Positions 15,566 to 22,885 of a DNA stretch of 34,942 nt are shown here, one piece after another. The notes below the pieces were generated by a model that was not told where the DNA came from, searched no databases, and worked only from the letters and a program-made list of their open reading frames with translations. How positions within the stretch are numbered: the first letter of the stretch is position 1; every line of letters starts with the position of its first letter. The position numbers and the translations under genes were made by a program. The stretch is from Bacteroidaceae bacterium (GTDB taxonomy: Bacteria > Bacteroidota > Bacteroidia > Bacteroidales > Bacteroidaceae), in the NCBI GenBank assembly GCA_017940185.1, contig JAGAZE010000014.1, forward strand, positions 1 to 34,942. The letters are read 5' to 3'.

Positions 15566-15676
15566 TAGGCAGAAAGCAAAAGGGAGTAAAGGTTAAAGAG
15601 TTGACATTAAAGTGTAAAACCTTTCTGCGCAAAGAGAGTTCCCGTTATCATTATTGTTATTTCAATTTCAATTTCC

Positions 15677-16454: not shown

Positions 16455-17321
16455 ATGAAACTATCAGGACGTCGTGAGAGTAGTAATGTAGAAGATCGCC
16501 GTGGCATGAGCGGCGGTGCCATGGCTGGTGCCGGCGGCATTGGTGCCGTTATTGTCGGAGTGTTGATAGCGTTGCTCACCGGCGGCGACCCTTCCGAAGC
16601 GTTGCAGCAAATGGGCGGCCTGGGTGCTGGCAGCGGCACGCAGGTGGAAGGGCAATATGAGGGCACGCCCGAAGAAGAGGCACAGGTGCAATTCTGCAAG
16701 CAGGTGCTGGCTTCCACAGAGGATGTATGGGAAGAGGTATTCCAGAGCATGGGACGCCGCTATGAGCCACCAACGCTAGTGTTCTTCACTGGAAGCGTGC
16801 AGAGTGCCTGCGGCGGGGCCACAGCAGCCGTGGGTCCTTTCTACTGCTCGGGCGACAGAAAACTGTATATCGACTTGTCGTTTTTCCAGCAGATGGAGCA
16901 GCAGTTGCAGTCGGGCGGCGACTTTGCACGTGCCTATGTGATAGCCCACGAGGTAGGTCACCATGTGGAGCATCTGCTAGGCACGCTCGACAAGGCACAT
17001 GCACAGATGCAGCGGCTGAGCAAGACGCAGGCCAACCAAGTGAGCGTGAGGCTTGAGTTGCTTGCCGACTACTATGCCGGCGTGTGGGGACACTATGAGA
17101 ACAAGATGTTTGGTTCGCTGGAAGACGGCGACATTGAGGAGGCCATCAACTGTGCACAACACATTGGCGACAACTACCTGCAAGAGCGTTCGCAAGGCTA
17201 TTCACAGCCCGAGTCGTTCACCCACGGAACGAGTGCGCAACGCATGCGCTGGCTGAAGCGCGGCCTTCAGACGGGCGACATGCGCACCACAACATTCACG
17301 GGCGACTATTCTGACTTATAG
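16455..17321 (+). CDS. ypfJ: neutral zinc metallopeptidase (YpfJ family)
   Basis: 288 residues. An Arg-rich N-terminus precedes a Gly-rich single membrane segment (about 20-42), then the peptidase domain. The zinc site is HEVGH (His165, Glu166, His169) with a third ligand likely Glu201 in RLELLADYYAGVW. The CGGATAAVGPFYC and LYIDLSFF stretches are family signatures. It is expected to sit in the inner membrane with the catalytic part in the periplasm; the biological substrate of this family is not established. It has its own promoter and a terminator at 17362-17396. Confidence 0.93.
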   Translation: MKLSGRRESSNVEDRRGMSGGAMAGAGGIGAVIVGVLIALLTGGDPSEALQQMGGLGAGSGTQVEGQYEGTPEEEAQVQFCKQVLASTEDVWEEVFQSMGRRYEPPTLVFFTGSVQSACGGATAAVGPFYCSGDRKLYIDLSFFQQMEQQLQSGGDFARAYVIAHEVGHHVEHLLGTLDKAHAQMQRLSKTQANQVSVRLELLADYYAGVWGHYENKMFGSLEDGDIEEAINCAQHIGDNYLQERSQGYSQPESFTHGTSAQRMRWLKRGLQTGDMRTTTFTGDYSDL

Positions 17322-17361
17322 GTTCGAAGTGAAGTATTGACACACACACGCACACACACTA

Positions 17362-17396
17362 AGCGAGGCGCCTTTCATGGTGATGGGCGCCTCGCT
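17362..17396. terminator. bidirectional terminator hairpin
   Basis: AGCGAGGCGCC (17362-17372) pairs perfectly with GGCGCCTCGCT (17386-17396) around 13 bases. It lies between convergent genes ending at 17321 and 17426. A TTT lies in the loop, and there is no long T-run. Confidence 0.75.
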
Positions 17397-17425
17397 CTAT
17401 GATATGGGTACAGCATTGTCGGGGG

Positions 17426-17941
17426 CTACAATTTGCCCACCAGGGCTTCTATCTTAGCTTTTGTGGCATCGGTATGCTGTTCGTCATTTTTTGCCGTGAC
17501 GATGCCCGTGTCGGTAACACCCCAATAGTTGCATATATCGCGATACTCTGCCATGGCACCATCGTACACACCAGGGGAGTAGGAGGAGAGCAGGAGTGAC
17601 ATCTTGGTGACCTTTGCAGGCTTGTTGACGCAATACATGCGCTGCAGGGGAGCCTGTATCTGTGCATTTAGGGTGAAGTAGTAGATGGGCGATGCCAGCA
17701 CGAGCACGTCAGCCTCTGCCATCAAGGGATAGAGTTCCTGCATGTCGTCTTTCTGTATACATGCACCGTTGCCTTTATTGTGGCAATACTCGCATGCCAA
17801 GCAACCGGCAATCTTCTTATGTGACACGTTGCAGAGTGTCACCTGGTGTCCTGCCGTTTCAGCAGCCTGCTTGTAGACCTCTGCCATCCATGCGGTGCTA
17901 CCTTTGGCGCGGGGAGAGGATTGGAGAATGAGAATGTTCAT
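17426..17941 (-). CDS. flavodoxin-like NAD(P)H:FMN oxidoreductase
   Basis: 171 residues. It begins MNILILQSSPRAKGST, the FMN-binding start of the flavodoxin-like fold, followed by a CLACEYCHNKGNGACIQKDDM segment (about 47-67) and LVLASPIYYFT (about 80-90). This is the iron-sulfur-flavoprotein/NADPH-dependent FMN reductase group, with four cysteines in the insert. The start at 17941 is chosen because the fold begins there. It lies 42 bases after pdxT with no promoter seen, so it may be the last gene of the pdx unit; an FMN enzyme there could relate to redox steps of B6 vitamers, which is a guess. Confidence 0.83.
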   Translation of the reverse strand: MNILILQSSPRAKGSTAWMAEVYKQAAETAGHQVTLCNVSHKKIAGCLACEYCHNKGNGACIQKDDMQELYPLMAEADVLVLASPIYYFTLNAQIQAPLQRMYCVNKPAKVTKMSLLLSSYSPGVYDGAMAEYRDICNYWGVTDTGIVTAKNDEQHTDATKAKIEALVGKL

Positions 17942-17983
17942 AATGATAAATGAGTTGTGTGTGTGCTTGGGTGGAAGCAAGCA

Positions 17984-18577
17984 TCAGCCAATGCTGTTGA
18001 GAAAGAGTTGGTGGAGCGTGGTGTCGTCATCAAGTTCTGGATGGAATGCCGTGACTAGTTGGTGTCCTTGCCGTGCTGCCACGATATGTCCATCAATGGT
18101 GGCGAGCGCTTCAGCATCGCCATACACCCTATTTATATATGGTGCGCGTATGAACGTCATCGGCACTTGATACTGTTGTCCGTCAGCAGCTATTGCTGCC
18201 TCAGTGTGGAAGCTTCCCAGTTGTCGACCGTAGGCATTGCGCACCACCTCTATATCCATCGTTGCCAGTCGCGGGAACGGCGAGTGTGCAGCGTGTAGCT
18301 CATCTGCCATCTGTGTTGCCAGAAGTATGAGTCCTGCACATGTGCCGAAGACAGGCATGCCTGCCATGATGGCCTCGCGCACAGGCTGATAGAGACCGAG
18401 CTCGTGCATGAGTTTCAGCATGGTGGTGCTCTCTCCTCCAGGGAGAATGAGACCATCTTTGTGCTGTTGCCAATCAGACAACTGCCGTACCTCGAAGGTA
18501 TTGGCTCCGAGGCGTTGCAGCATGTGTTCGTGTTCGATGAAAGCCCCTTGCAGGGCCATTACAGCAATGCGTTTCAC
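17984..18577 (-). CDS. pdxT: PdxT, glutaminase subunit of PLP synthase
   Basis: 197 residues. Class I glutamine amidotransferase of the deoxyxylulose-independent vitamin B6 pathway. It shows LPGGEST (45-51), the catalytic Cys80 in [10 protein letters not shown] and the His179/Glu181 pair in FHPEL. It delivers ammonia from glutamine to PdxS. The start codon overlaps the pdxS stop by 4 bases, as expected for a coupled pair. Confidence 0.96.
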
Positions 18578-19449
18578 TGTCCGCGCTCCTCCATGATGAG
18601 TTTTATCTCCTGCTCGTTGATGCCCACCATGGCCTCGCCCAAGTCTTCAGACAACTCAGCCAGCATCTTCGCATCATTGTAGTTGGTTACGGCCTTTACT
18701 ATGGCCTGTGCTCGCTTGGCGGGATTGCCGCTCTTGAAGATGCCGCTTCCCACGAAAACACCTTCAGCACCGAGCTGCATCATGAGTGCTGCATCGGCGG
18801 GTGTTGCCACACCGCCAGCGGCGAAATTGACCACGGGCAGTTTGCCATTCTGATGCACGTAGAGCACCAGGTCGTAGGGTACCTGTAGTTGCTTGGCGGC
18901 CTCAAAGAGTTCGTCTTCTGCCATGGAGGTGATGCGTCGTATCTCCTGCTGCATCATACGCATGTGGCGCACTGCCTGTACCACATCGCCGGTGCCAGGT
19001 TCGCCCTTGGTGCGTATCATCGTGGCACCCTCAGCAATGCGGCGGAGCGCCTCGCCAAGGTTGCGCGCACCGCACACAAAGGGAACATCGAACTTGGTCT
19101 TGTCGATATGGTAGACATCATCGGCAGGCGAAAGCACCTCGCTCTCGTCAATGTAGTCAATCTCTATAGCCTGCAGTATCTGTGCCTCGGCAAAGTGTCC
19201 GATGCGGCACTTAGCCATCACAGGGATGGACACGGCTTCCTGTATGCCTTTAATCATCTTGGGGTCGCTCATGCGCGACACGCCTCCTGCTGCACGGATA
19301 TCGGCAGGGATACGCTCCAGCGCCATAACGGCACAAGCACCAGCTTCCTGGGCTATGCGTGCCTGCTCAGGGGTGGTGACGTCCATGATTACTCCGCCCT
19401 TAAGCATCTGGGCGAGATTGCGGTTGAGTTCTTGTCTAGACTGTTGCAT
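18574..19449 (-). CDS. pdxS: PdxS, PLP synthase lyase subunit
   Basis: 291 residues, full length. It condenses ribose 5-phosphate, glyceraldehyde 3-phosphate and ammonia into pyridoxal 5'-phosphate. Key residues: Asp23 (VIMDV), Lys80 (MAKCRIGHF) and Lys148 (RTKGEPGTG), with the phosphate-binding GSGIF near the C-terminus. A candidate promoter lies at 19545-19576. It is followed by pdxT with a 4-base overlap. Confidence 0.97.
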
Positions 19450-19544
19450 GATATAATTATATTAATAGGTATTGATAAATGATCGTGGGCAGACACGGGG
19501 ATAGATGTTGCCACGCAGACGGCAAAGGAACACATAACTGTGGA

Positions 19545-19576
19545 GAAAGGTACGGGCTGGTTCGCAAAACGACAAA
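19545..19576 (-). promoter_or_regulatory. candidate pdxST promoter
   Basis: On the minus strand TTTG (19576-19573) is followed by 20 bases and TACCTTTC (19552-19545), one base off TAnnTTTG. A leader of about 90 bases precedes the pdxS ATG. The imperfect -7 box is compatible with a promoter that needs an activator. No other signal is seen in 19450-19616. Confidence 0.45.
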
Positions 19577-19616
19577 GAAAAGCGTGGTTTCGACAAGAAC
19601 ACCGGTAAGAAAGCGG

Positions 19617-20405
19617 CTATTGTCGGTCGTCATGCAGCAGTTTGTGAGCCATCTGCTTGCGCTGCTTGCGCCGCAACAGGTGATGGCGCTGCCGGGCGAA
19701 GACATACATGCAATGGTCGAAATCTATCCCCTTGCTCTCTGCATAAAGCGACAGAAAGTCAACGGCATCTTGATAGCTGCGGCAGAACTGCGAATACATC
19801 TTCATGGTACTCTTTAGGGTGGGTGTGCGCCCAAAGCGCATGCGGTTGATGTCGACCAATTGGAAGTGGAAACGGCCTTCACGCTGCTCTACGATGATGT
19901 TGGCATGGTTAAAGTCACCCGGGCATATGCAGTGCTGCTCCAGATGGATGACATACTTTGTGAGTGCTGTTCGTAGCTGCTGCATCGTTGTCGCTGCCTC
20001 GCCGTCACCTTGTGCCGCTTGGTTACGCAGGCAGGCATAGAGTTCGCTGAACGGTGTCCCTTTAGCTTGTTCCGACACCAACCATGAGCGGGCAAATCGG
20101 CAGCCGCGACGCTCCTCCATATAGGCTATGGGTTGCGGCGTGGCAATGCCTGCCTGCAACAATCGCATGCCATATTCATAGGCACGGCGCGCCTTCGACT
20201 TGCGCAGCAGTCCGTAGACCCATCGATTGAGAGCGTTGGGCGTGCGAAAGCGCTTCACCACGACGCACTGTCTGTCGGCAGCAACCACGCGCTCCACCAC
20301 ATTGCGACGATGGCAATACACGTGCTGAGGAGTGTATGTTCCTGCCACGATGCGCTCAAGCAATGGGCGCAAGGAAGCAAACGAAGGACTGACCACCATC
20401 TTCAT
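19617..20405 (-). CDS. Kdo/WaaP-type lipopolysaccharide kinase-like protein
   Basis: 262 residues with the protein-kinase-like fold of LPS core kinases. The ATP-binding Lys is likely Lys51 (VVKRFR), the catalytic loop is PGDFNHANII (Asp164, Asn169) and the metal Asp is Asp185 in LVDINRMRFG. A His normally seen just before the catalytic Asp is not in the usual place. It would phosphorylate Kdo or heptose in the LPS inner core at the cytoplasmic face. Its ATG overlaps the stop of the ThiD-AraC fusion gene by 4 bases, so the two are co-translated even though their roles look unrelated. Confidence 0.85.
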   Translation of the reverse strand: MKMVVSPSFASLRPLLERIVAGTYTPQHVYCHRRNVVERVVAADRQCVVVKRFRTPNALNRWVYGLLRKSKARRAYEYGMRLLQAGIATPQPIAYMEERRGCRFARSWLVSEQAKGTPFSELYACLRNQAAQGDGEAATTMQQLRTALTKYVIHLEQHCICPGDFNHANIIVEQREGRFHFQLVDINRMRFGRTPTLKSTMKMYSQFCRSYQDAVDFLSLYAESKGIDFDHCMYVFARQRHHLLRRKQRKQMAHKLLHDDRQ

Positions 20406-21295
20406 GGCAAGCGCTCCTTTCTATATTGTGACGGGGTGGTGCCGGTCATTTTTTTAAAAAACTTGGTGAGATGCGCCTGCGAGCTGTATCCCAGCGCTGC
20501 CGCTATCTGCTGCATGCTCTGCTGCGTTGTGGCCAGTTGCACTTGGGTCTGTCTAAGCAACTGCTCGTCAATAATGGTCTTTGGCGCCTTGCCTGCTACG
20601 CGCCGACACACCTGTCCTAAATACCGAGTCGACACATTCAATCTACTGGCATAGTAGGCCACGTCGCTGTGGGCATAGAGGTGTGACGATAGCTGGCTAA
20701 GAAAGTCGTTGTAGAGCATGCTGCTTCTTGATGTCAGGCCCATGGAGCGTACCACGAGCGTGTCCACATAGTCGTTGGCATGTGCTATGGCCAGAGGTAG
20801 CGGCTGTCCCTGATTGAGAAACACGCACACCGCACTTGCCATAGCGTTTGACAACCCGTGCATAGGCGTATGCCCCTGCTGGCGCTGTTCCACCACATAG
20901 GTGCATAGCGGCAACAAGCGCTCCACAATCATCTGCCGCAGCGACAACGGCACCAGCGCCTCACCGCGCGAGGAGAGAAACACAGGGTCGTAGACCACAT
21001 GGCGCGGACGATGGCGTTGCAGGCTGTCGACCACAGCATTGAGCACTGCCTGCGAGCGTATGAGCCCCACCTTCACCACATCGGGAGCCACATCGTTGAA
21101 GATAGCCTCCATTTGCCCCTCTACAATAGATGCCGGCACATCAAAAAATTCCTGTATGCCCAGAGTGGTCTGTACCGTCAGACAGGTCAATGCCGTAGCA
21201 GCCGTGGCACCGAGTGAAGCCATGGTACGCACATCAGCCTGAATGCCCGAAAGACCGGTGGAGTCGGAACCCGTGATGGTGAGAATGGGAGACAT
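20402..21295 (-). CDS. ThiD-like domain fused to AraC-type DNA-binding domain
   Basis: 297 residues. Residues 1-135 follow the N-terminal half of HMP/HMP-P kinase ThiD: LTITGSDSTGLSGIQADVRT (5-24), LTVQTTLGIQ (39-48), VVKVGLIRS (73-81) and VVYDPVFLSSRGEAL (100-114). About 70 residues that normally carry the ATP site are missing, and the HGTGCT loop with its catalytic Cys is replaced by HGLSNA (146-151). Residues ~200-297 form a two-helix-turn-helix AraC/XylS domain (VAYYASRLNVSTRYLGQVCR and IAAALGYSSQAHLTKFFKK). I infer a one-component regulator in which a dead kinase pocket senses a pyrimidine or B6 vitamer. ATG 21295 is chosen because similarity starts there and a TACCTTTG box lies upstream. 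pdxST lies downstream on the same strand. Confidence 0.88.
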   Translation of the reverse strand: MSPILTITGSDSTGLSGIQADVRTMASLGATAATALTCLTVQTTLGIQEFFDVPASIVEGQMEAIFNDVAPDVVKVGLIRSQAVLNAVVDSLQRHRPRHVVYDPVFLSSRGEALVPLSLRQMIVERLLPLCTYVVEQRQQGHTPMHGLSNAMASAVCVFLNQGQPLPLAIAHANDYVDTLVVRSMGLTSRSSMLYNDFLSQLSSHLYAHSDVAYYASRLNVSTRYLGQVCRRVAGKAPKTIIDEQLLRQTQVQLATTQQSMQQIAAALGYSSQAHLTKFFKKMTGTTPSQYRKERLP

Positions 21296-21366
21296 GAGCA
21301 AAAAGAGGTAAGAGGTGAAAAGGATGGAGACAACCATACTAGGGCAGATGACCAACATCGCCGATA

Positions 21367-21374
21367 CAAAGGTA
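21367..21374 (-). promoter_or_regulatory. -7 box TACCTTTG for the ThiD-AraC gene
   Basis: CAAAGGTA on the plus strand reads TACCTTTG on the minus strand, 71 bases upstream of the start at 21295. A TTG is 25 bases further upstream (21400-21402), slightly too far. The ~65-base leader shows no thiamin riboswitch motif. Confidence 0.55.
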
Positions 21375-21444
21375 ATACCTAATTTCGCATCTTGAGAGGC
21401 AACATTTATATTTTTCCGCTCCATGGCATTTTTTTGCCAGAAAA

Positions 21445-21476
21445 TTTGCACACTCGCTGACAGAGTACTATCTTTG
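21445..21476 (+). promoter_or_regulatory. strong consensus promoter
   Basis: TTTG (21445-21448), 20 bases, TATCTTTG (21469-21476): both Bacteroidetes elements at ideal spacing. It drives the small secreted-protein gene at 21500 and is divergent from the ThiD-AraC promoter. Confidence 0.75.
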
Positions 21477-21499
21477 CAGCGAATAAATGTGTACCTATC

Positions 21500-21808
21500 A
21501 TGACGAAACGTATACTCATATCGCTTTTCTCGCTGACGCTGCTCTTCGGCATGCCCTGCCTGCAGAGTGCTGGCGCAGCAGTTGAAATTGTGGACAACGA
21601 CTTCAATAACATCAACGTAACCATGAACGAAAACACGTTGCATGTCACTGGGGCCGCCGGACAAGTGATGCACATCTACAATGTGACAGGACTGCGCGTG
21701 ATGAGCATCAGGGTGGAAGGAGCCGACAAAAGCTACGAGCTCAACCTGCCCAAAGGATGCTACATCGTTAAGATAGGTAAGTTTGTAAGAAAAATATCTA
21801 TACGTTAG
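21500..21808 (+). CDS. small secreted protein made of a T9SS-like C-terminal domain
   Basis: 102 residues. A signal peptide (about 1-26, ending SAGA-AV) is followed by only ~76 residues, most of which look like the type A sorting/secretion domain usually found at the end of large secreted proteins: LHVTGAAGQVMHIYNVTGL, then a SYELNLPKGCYIVKIGK stretch. There is no passenger domain. It could be a stand-alone adaptor or the remnant of a larger gene. It has a strong promoter and a terminator at 21842-21890, so it is expressed as a single unit, apart from possible readthrough into the sigma gene. Confidence 0.8.
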   Translation: MTKRILISLFSLTLLFGMPCLQSAGAAVEIVDNDFNNINVTMNENTLHVTGAAGQVMHIYNVTGLRVMSIRVEGADKSYELNLPKGCYIVKIGKFVRKISIR

Positions 21809-21841
21809 CACCACTCACTCACTCCACATAATCACATGTAT

Positions 21842-21890
21842 AGGCACAACATGTAAGCCGATGAAGGATGACATGTAGTGCCTTTTTCTT
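21842..21890 (+). terminator. terminator hairpin just before the sigma factor gene
   Basis: AGGCACAACATGT (21842-21854) pairs with ACATGTAGTGCCT (21871-21883), one A-A mismatch, 16-base loop, followed by TTTTCTTT. The next ATG is at 21907, only 24 bases past the stem, and there is no promoter between. The sigma gene must then be reached by readthrough or from a promoter inside the loop region, so this may be an attenuator. Confidence 0.75.
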
Positions 21891-21906
21891 TCCTCCGCCT
21901 TCCGCC

Positions 21907-22458
21907 ATGGCCTTTGCCCACAACGACGACAAAAAGATAGCACAACTGCTCAGCTCACCCCACACGCTGCGCAAGGGCTTCGAGATGATGGTGCACTGCT
22001 ACAGCCGGCCACTCTACTGGAAGATCAGAAGCATAGTACTGGTGCACGAAGATGCTGACGACGTGCTGCAAAACACGTGGATAAAAGCTTGGAAAAACAT
22101 CAACACCTTTGAAGGAAAGTCAAAACTCTCCACCTGGCTCTATCGCATAGCCGTGAACGAAGCCCTCGATATGCTGAGACGAAAAAAGACACAGGCACAG
22201 CAACAGGGTGACGAACCGCTCACTACGGCGGCACAACTCATGGCCGACCCGCTCTTCGACGGCGACAGGGCAGAGGCATTGCTCAGAGAAGCCATCAACA
22301 CACTGCCCAACGTGCAGAGAATGGTATTCAACATGAGATACTTCGACAACATGAAGTACAGCGAAATAAGCCAAATCCTCAACACCAGCGAAGGAGCACT
22401 GAAGGCGTCCTACCACATAGCAGCAAAAAAAGTGAGCGACTATGTGTTGACGCATTAA
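21907..22458 (+). CDS. ECF-type RNA polymerase sigma factor
   Basis: 183 residues. Region 2 spans about 25-93 (VHEDADDVLQNTWIKAWKN and LSTWLYRIAVNEALDMLRRK); region 4 spans about 125-180 (LPNVQRMVFNMRYFDNMKYSEIS, NTSEGALKASYHIAAKKV). This is the group IV/ECF type. It would direct polymerase to an envelope-stress or nutrient regulon with its downstream partners. ATG 21907 is used because the upstream ATG at 21868 lies inside the terminator hairpin. Confidence 0.92.
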   Translation: MAFAHNDDKKIAQLLSSPHTLRKGFEMMVHCYSRPLYWKIRSIVLVHEDADDVLQNTWIKAWKNINTFEGKSKLSTWLYRIAVNEALDMLRRKKTQAQQQGDEPLTTAAQLMADPLFDGDRAEALLREAINTLPNVQRMVFNMRYFDNMKYSEISQILNTSEGALKASYHIAAKKVSDYVLTH

Positions 22459-22537
22459 ACTTTCGCACACTACCCTACGTCAAACAAACAGAACAATAAC
22501 AACCCGCACCACTACGCCATAACGCTTTACAAAACCC

Positions 22538-22885
22538 ATGACACCACATAAGCAGTCGGCAGAACACATTTTCAGTGTACCACCACACTACTTCGACACG
22601 CTGGAAGAGCGCATCCTCAGCAACACCGCTAAGGCAATGCTGCCAGCACAACCTGCCACCCCCCCGCACAAACTCACACTGCGCCATACACTCCGCCGAC
22701 GTATGGCAGTAGCGGCAGTGGCTGTAGGAATAATAACCACCATAGGATTGCGACTCTCAACACCCACCACCCACCACAACAACAACGCAAGCAACAATAC
22801 GGGCAACGACAACACCATAGAGACAATGATCGACTACGTGATGTACGACGACAACGACCTCTACGCCTACCTGCTCGACAACTAA
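22538..22885 (+). CDS. candidate membrane anti-sigma or regulator protein
   Basis: 115 residues. It opens with a VPPHYFDTLEERI motif (14-26), common in small Bacteroidetes proteins encoded right after ECF sigma genes, then one membrane segment (about 56-73) after a basic stretch RHTLRRR, and an acidic Asn/Asp-rich C-terminal part. The N-terminus would lie in the cytoplasm where it could hold the sigma factor. It lacks the ZAS zinc motif of classical anti-sigma factors. It lies 79 bases after the sigma gene and 17 before the Spy-like gene. Confidence 0.7.
   Translation: MTPHKQSAEHIFSVPPHYFDTLEERILSNTAKAMLPAQPATPPHKLTLRHTLRRRMAVAAVAVGIITTIGLRLSTPTTHHNNNASNNTGNDNTIETMIDYVMYDDNDLYAYLLDN

Follow-up and report, generated by a model that had tools for sequence, protein, structure and literature searches.

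The regulator PdxR activates its targets when vitamin B6 is scarce, and binding of its ligand stops this activation; its sensor is unrelated to the kinase ThiD. In archaea, ThiR joins a helix-turn-helix (HTH) domain to ThiN and controls thiamin genes. Passages of PMC5320631 present the MocR regulators PdxR, PdxQ and PdxW as B6 transcription factors, and PdxR is also mentioned in parts of PMC9997740 and PMC6593275; the word AraC is absent from the main texts of all three. No published description of a ThiD–AraC protein or of an AraC-type B6 regulator appeared among the literature matches listed, subscription journals being mostly outside their coverage. Here, we describe a ThiD–AraC fusion encoded on a stretch of 34,942 nucleotides (nt) from a member of the Bacteroidaceae (GenBank assembly GCA_017940185.1, contig JAGAZE010000014.1, positions 1 to 34,942), hereafter the window. 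The protein joins a remnant of ThiD, the kinase of hydroxymethylpyrimidine (HMP) and its phosphate (HMP-P), to an AraC-type DNA-binding domain, and its gene lies upstream of pdxST, which encode pyridoxal phosphate (PLP) synthase. Judging from sequence comparisons, we think it quite probable that this fusion is a pseudokinase-based vitamin sensor, probably for a B6 vitamer and most likely for PLP, which would activate pdxST.

A ThiD-derived domain without its catalytic residues

The sequence-only reading of the window had described the protein as a gutted ThiD kinase fused to a complete two-HTH domain, and this architecture was borne out. Within its 297 residues, approximately 61 residues of the ATP segment ahead of the catalytic-loop remnant are gone (14 residues separate residue 131 from the HG loop, versus 61–79 in 42 stand-alone ThiD proteins), and the loop itself reads HGLSN. 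At an E value of 0.01, Pfam recognized Phos_pyr_kin, HTH_18 and HTH_AraC and nothing else, with 79.6 bits for PF12833 (cut-off 33.6) and 41.5 bits for PF00165 (cut-off 26.6); no GntR winged HTH or aminotransferase domain was detected by Pfam at this threshold. The HMP-P kinase model TIGR00097 matched with 118.2 bits, below its cut-off of 204.95, over positions 1–131 of 254 of the profile, and the pyridoxal kinase model NF009077 reached 66.4 bits, below its cut-off of 385. A dedicated NCBIfam entry was also looked for with seven members (the window's protein and those of L081, L083, L067, L072, L036 and L037), and no listed family (25 of 31 for the window) reached its cut-off.

Relatives were collected from genomes of the window's family, genus, order and phylum, together with named genomes. 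Among the named carriers are Prevotella koreensis (L037) and an uncultured Prevotellaceae (L035, hereafter the sister locus), the fusion of which is 75% identical to that of the window. In the samples searched, the family is confined to the window's order, the Bacteroidales. Among 395 genomes of the phylum (E 1e-60; at most five candidates were scored per genome here and in the order sample), the window itself gave the only two-part match, and three other matches covered the kinase part only. In a maximum-likelihood tree of the kinase parts, a single branch (100/100) splits 62 fusions from the 42 stand-alone ThiD proteins; as judged from these sequences, the fusion family is of single origin from ThiD.

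The N-terminal part has kept the fold and the substrate-side residues of ThiD, and has lost the catalytic cysteine and most of the ATP part. Indeed, the loop of stand-alone ThiD is HGTGC in 41/42 proteins and HGTGD in the remaining one, so that the catalytic cysteine is found in 41/42 of these versus 0/62 fusions; at the final loop position the fusions have Asn (39), Gly (18) or Ser (5), and neither Cys nor Asp in any of the 62. The TPN motif of the ATP side is also missing from all 62, that of the window included. Conversely, G9, S10, D11, G17, D21, Q61, G77, H146 and G147 are kept in 62/62 fusions, and Q42 and K75 in 61/62. The equivalent of Q42, present in 42/42 ThiD proteins, corresponds to Gln/Glu 44, which, with its neighbours, we take to contact HMP in ThiD. 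An alanine common to 42/42 ThiD proteins is replaced by serine in 46/62 fusions (S16 in the window).

The segment from residue 131 to the HG loop varies from 11 to 78 residues among fusions, and full-length forms with a dead loop exist (e.g. L081, L083, L067 and L072), proteins with a full-length domain having 347–386 residues. Since such forms are present, and since the best tree requires a change from long to cut ATP half twice (the deciding branches being of moderate support, 92/57 and 88/81), the sequences place the loss of catalysis with or soon after the fusion event, the ATP half being trimmed later. A frameshift or assembly artefact was considered and rejected, given the same architecture in relatives and purifying selection: the ratio of non-synonymous to synonymous substitution rates (dN/dS) is 0.04–0.17 in ten close pairs, and 0.098 between the window and the sister locus, for which dS is near-saturated at 2.0. 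Nor did close relatives reveal a frameshift restoring the kinase segment, a prospect raised by the sequence-only reading; the sister fusion has the same short segment.

Some members depart from this pattern. The fusion of genome G607 (L186:574-1350, approx. 259 residues) is one open frame with an extra in-frame deletion in the substrate half; it adjoins pdxS and has a 34.5-bit copy of the operator described below. Genome G218 has a second, long-branched copy (L156) with no pdxS in its stretch, its other fusion (L155) being divergent from pdxS; this second copy is possibly a paralogue with another target.

Association with pdxST and a common candidate operator

Occurrence, position and a common candidate operator link the family to pdxST. 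Among 60 genomes of the window's genus, its own included, pdxS (TIGR00343) was found in 28, and the fusion in the same 28 and in none of the 32 others. In 24 of the 28, the fusion lies upstream of pdxS on the same strand, with a gap of 24–986 nt as measured by match ends; a Kdo-kinase gene stands between the two in the window and in G592. The four others lie 1.8 kilobases (kb) upstream (G631), on the opposite strand (G588), 144 kb away (G604) or on another contig (G628). Homologues standing beside unrelated genes would have been at odds with the control of nearby pdxST that the sequence-only reading proposed; pdxS is present in 33 of the 34 fusion loci compared.

In the family sample (201 genomes), pdxS occurs in 40 genomes, 33 of which have a fusion, 28 retrieved by a search at E 1e-30 and five more with tblastn, in or close to the pdxS locus. 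No fusion was found at E 1e-30 in the 161 family genomes without pdxS, this threshold having missed five full-length forms. Kinase-only matches were considered as hidden fusions and rejected: the 46 matching genomes are the 28 fusion carriers and 18 with a stand-alone ThiD (HGTGC, no AraC part), the latter including loci L029 and L032–L034, with 14 further stretches examined. The order sample (393 genomes) yielded pdxS in 19 genomes and the fusion in 10 (window included), with both in eight. Many of these genomes are incomplete assemblies.

The operator motif, first spotted by eye, was obtained from a Gibbs search of regions upstream of fusions. The model covers 47 base pairs (bp), was trained on 32 promoters, each preceding a fusion and picked from the 59 searched, and has the consensus TTGTCCAAAATGAAGTTTTTTTTGTCAAAAAGGGAACATCATTTTGT. 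The self-correlation of its columns peaks at an offset of 21 (0.60), which points to a direct repeat on one helix face; direct repeats with a 21-bp period near the promoter are the target layout of AraC/XylS-type regulators such as XylS and RhaS. Training promoters scored 0.9 to 54.6 bits when left out. Over all loci, scores above 20 bits occur at 84 of 3.42 million positions, duplicates counted. The retained loci hold 44 such sites, 43 of which precede a fusion or pdxS (in L169 at a distance of 476 nt), and nine sites above 20 bits precede pdxS, none from the training set. The operator is also found at pdxS genes unlinked to the fusion: the two are convergent in L065 and L066, which are close relatives, and on different contigs in L172 (genome G628). 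From the GAAC of the operator to a -7-type box, the distance is 28 nt at 36 of the 44 sites, 29 at five and 30 at one, two sites having no recognised box. When all 63 fusion loci are taken, training loci included, a site of at least 15 bits precedes the fusion or pdxS in 46, and one of at least 5 bits in 54.

At 17 pdxS promoters from genomes without detected fusion, the best operator score was 0.7 bits, and no fusion-like frame was found in these control loci, which belong to the same order (L078, L080, L082, L084–L087 and L174–L183). A MocR gene beside pdxS was sought as well, and none was recognized by Pfam among one neighbour each at 10 of the 17 control loci, MocR elsewhere in these genomes being possible. 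In L153 (6485–6531), a second, near-identical operator copy lies downstream of what looks by eye like a cytidine triphosphate synthase gene, and no likely gene follows this copy on its strand. In G561 (L150/L036) and G499 (L151), the fusion has a strong operator of its own, and the upstream gene resembles, by eye, that of L-aspartate oxidase (nadB).

The features of the window are collected in table 1. A score equal to or above that of its pdxS operator occurs at 1 of 109,640 plus-strand positions in eight control loci, and ahead of pdxS in the sister locus stands a copy of lower score (3.9 bits), again in register. Once the Kdo-kinase gene came between fusion and pdxS, the operator apparently stayed with pdxS or was re-made there. 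Such a gene lies between fusion and pdxS in two of 34 loci (the window and its sister), with no match in a set of 25 loci.

Table 1. Features of the fusion and pdxST region (window coordinates).
Feature	Position	Strand	Description
-7-like element upstream of fusion gene, TACCTTTG	21367..21374	-	found by eye; putative function
ThiD pseudokinase–AraC fusion gene	20402..21295	-	297 residues + stop
Substrate half of ThiD fold, residues 1–135	20891..21295	-	G9 S10 D11 G17 D21 Q42 Q61 K75 G77 as in ThiD
Catalytic-loop remnant and following helices, residues 146–186	20738..20860	-	HGLSN in place of HGTGC
Helix and AraC/XylS two-HTH DNA-binding domain, residues 190–297	20405..20728	-	Pfam HTH_18 at 215–293
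Kdo/WaaP-family kinase gene	19617..20405	-	4-nt overlap with fusion
Candidate operator upstream of pdxS, TTGTCGAAACCACGCTTTTCTTTGTCGTTTTGCGAACCAGCCCGTAC	19550..19596	-	9.7 bits, second highest of 69,792 window positions
-7-like box of pdxS promoter, TTCCTTTG	19523..19530	-	29 nt after operator GAAC, within family register
pdxS, PLP synthase lyase subunit, predicted target	18574..19449	-	NF003215 513.4 bits, TIGR00343 499.7 bits
pdxT, PLP synthase glutaminase subunit, predicted target	17984..18577	-	TIGR03800 201.9 bits; 4-nt overlap with pdxS

For the -7-like element upstream of the fusion gene, we take TAnnTTTG to be the consensus. No Rfam element matched at gathering score in 17000–22500. 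Divergently from the fusion, 21500–22885 encodes a small protein (weak C-terminal match to a sorting tail, DUF6383/Por_Secre_tail), a protein with sigma-70 region 2/4 and another small protein, for which Pfam gave no match; of these neighbours, the sister locus also has the first two.

Proposed mechanism and its alternatives

We propose that a B6 vitamer, most likely PLP, would bind in the old substrate pocket and would not be phosphorylated. At the pdxS or fusion–pdxST promoter, the two HTH units would occupy the pair of direct repeats that lie immediately before the -33 region and touch it, and the bound regulator would recruit RNA polymerase. Counting from the position of the -7 box in Bacteroidetes promoters, it would span about -76 to -30 and touch the -33 region; since XylS and other AraC/XylS activators have this layout, an activator is favoured. 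Activation of pdxST would occur when B6 is scarce, and the end product (PLP or another vitamer) would stop it by filling the pocket. In most relatives, the regulator would also activate its own operon; in the window, where the Kdo-kinase gene separates fusion from pdxS, the candidate operator precedes pdxS itself.

The ligand and the sign of regulation are what we infer from such comparisons. PLP is favoured because the MocR regulators of PLP genes have PLP as ligand and because the title of 4ywr, a ThiD-like structure, reads as that of a complex with pyridoxal phosphate. The fold could plausibly have switched ligands, since the pyridoxal kinase of Staphylococcus aureus accepts HMP as well as pyridoxal, according to parts of PMC7093009. 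Co-occurrence (28/28 versus 0/32), position and operator thus lend support to the non-catalytic ThiD-fold sensor controlling pdxST that had been suggested from the window alone. We lean, with less assurance, towards the broader claim of a new family of Bacteroidales B6 regulators, in which a dead ThiD-derived domain would sense PLP or another vitamer and the AraC part would activate PLP synthesis, the family having arisen once, lost catalysis first and shed the ATP half repeatedly.

Several observations weigh against this interpretation. Two training promoters reach just 0.9 and 8.0 bits when left out, and nine of the 63 fusion loci have no site of at least 5 bits within 260 nt of the fusion or 250–260 nt of pdxS, among them the sister locus (3.9 bits) and L169 (with its 51.5-bit site 476 nt upstream). 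In the window, the pdxS copy is weak at 9.7 bits, no operator precedes the fusion gene (best score -8.6), and positions 15628–15674 on the minus strand score 10.6 bits, slightly above the pdxS site, for no evident reason. G499 and G561, of one genus in the order sample, have a fusion and no detected pdxS, and no fusion was detected in 7/40 family and 11/19 order genomes with pdxS. Co-occurrence counts are not phylogenetically independent and linked genes are lost together, so that Fisher values overstate significance and are descriptive only. Finally, the G607 fusion lacks part of the substrate half also, and the pocket of the family is ThiD-like (Q42), the HMP-P kinase model scoring above the pyridoxal kinase model in the window (118 versus 66 bits).

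One alternative differs in sign only, the ligand-bound protein being a repressor of pdxST. The -33 region is part of the operator, and the polymerase could also be blocked by a protein bound there; however, the register of 28–30 nt to the -7 box (42/44 sites) and the upstream placement are typical of AraC/XylS activators, and repression appears unlikely.

We consider it improbable that the regulator, though tied to pdxST, senses no vitamer and responds instead to an amino acid, an intermediate of the pathway or a protein partner (such as PdxS or PdxT), with the ThiD part serving as a dimerisation or protein-contact module. A sensor without its ATP half, and in G607 without part of its substrate half, may hold no small ligand, and the conserved residues could serve folding. 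Yet the residues kept are the substrate-side ones, the presumed contacts of ThiD, whereas the catalytic and ATP-side residues are gone.

A sensor still responding to HMP (or HMP-P), as part of a thiamin-pathway regulator that also touches pdxST, would agree with the ThiD-type pocket, with the near-universal Q42 and with HMP-P kinase being the best enzyme model. However, thiC occurs in 16 of the 60 genus genomes, exactly those with a stand-alone ThiD above 250 bits, and fusion and thiC occur together in nine, the fusion only in 19, thiC only in seven and neither in 25 (Fisher p 0.40). Because the fusion is distributed independently of thiC and ThiD, thiamin regulation was discarded and HMP is disfavoured as ligand. 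Neither thiC nor another ThiD was found in the window's genome, a provisional absence as this genome is 89% complete, and the replacement of the ThiD alanine by serine also speaks against HMP, which makes this alternative quite improbable. Of the two ligands offered by the sequence-only reading, HMP or a B6 vitamer, it is the second that is favoured.

Very improbable, too, is a bifunctional enzyme and regulator that still phosphorylates a vitamer: some relatives do have a full-length kinase domain, but the catalytic Cys/Asp and TPN are absent throughout and the window has lost much of its ATP part. A decaying, functionless gene fragment, which deletions in the kinase part might evoke, is contradicted by the dN/dS values, the open frames in relatives and the conserved operator, and is scarcely credible.

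If the fusion is indeed a PLP-responsive activator of pdxST, the family would offer extant intermediates in the conversion of an enzyme into a sensor: it forms a graded series from full-length dead kinase to half-domain, along which the passage from enzyme to ligand sensor can be read and tested step by step. The candidate operator, for its part, predicts which promoters are under this regulator in Prevotella and its kin.

Comparison with known regulators and enzymes

With PdxR and other MocR regulators, the fusion would share the reuse of an enzyme fold as sensor for PLP genes, the ligand being PLP in MocR (parts of PMC5320631 and PMC9997740). The components differ: MocR combines a GntR winged HTH with an aminotransferase fold, whereas the fusion combines a ThiD pseudokinase of ribokinase fold with an AraC-type domain. 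ThiD itself (TIGR00097) has the fold and the substrate-side residues in common with the fusions, which form one side of a branch against it; unlike ThiD, the fusion has neither the catalytic cysteine nor most of the ATP part, and scores 118 bits against a cut-off of 205. From the ThiD2/PdxK-type pyridoxal kinases (Bacillus subtilis 2i5b, S. aureus 4c5l) it differs by its score (66 bits against the NF009077 cut-off of 385) and in that no catalysis is expected of it.

The AraC/XylS activators XylS and RhaS resemble the fusion in the two-HTH domain and, as far as the candidate operator goes, in direct repeats of 21-bp period next to the promoter, whereas their usual sensor is a cupin or another domain and that of the fusion is derived from a kinase. 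Archaeal ThiR also uses a vitamin-pathway enzyme domain as sensor, although with another enzyme, another HTH and thiamin genes as targets. As we read it, the fusion is an AraC-family protein with a kind of sensor that we did not find described, a descendant of ThiD yet no ThiD, and it would work like PdxR yet is no MocR. In the literature examined, the dedicated transcription factors of PLP synthesis are MocR proteins; in bacteria of the gut and rumen, the fusion is a candidate for another solution, unrelated to the first.
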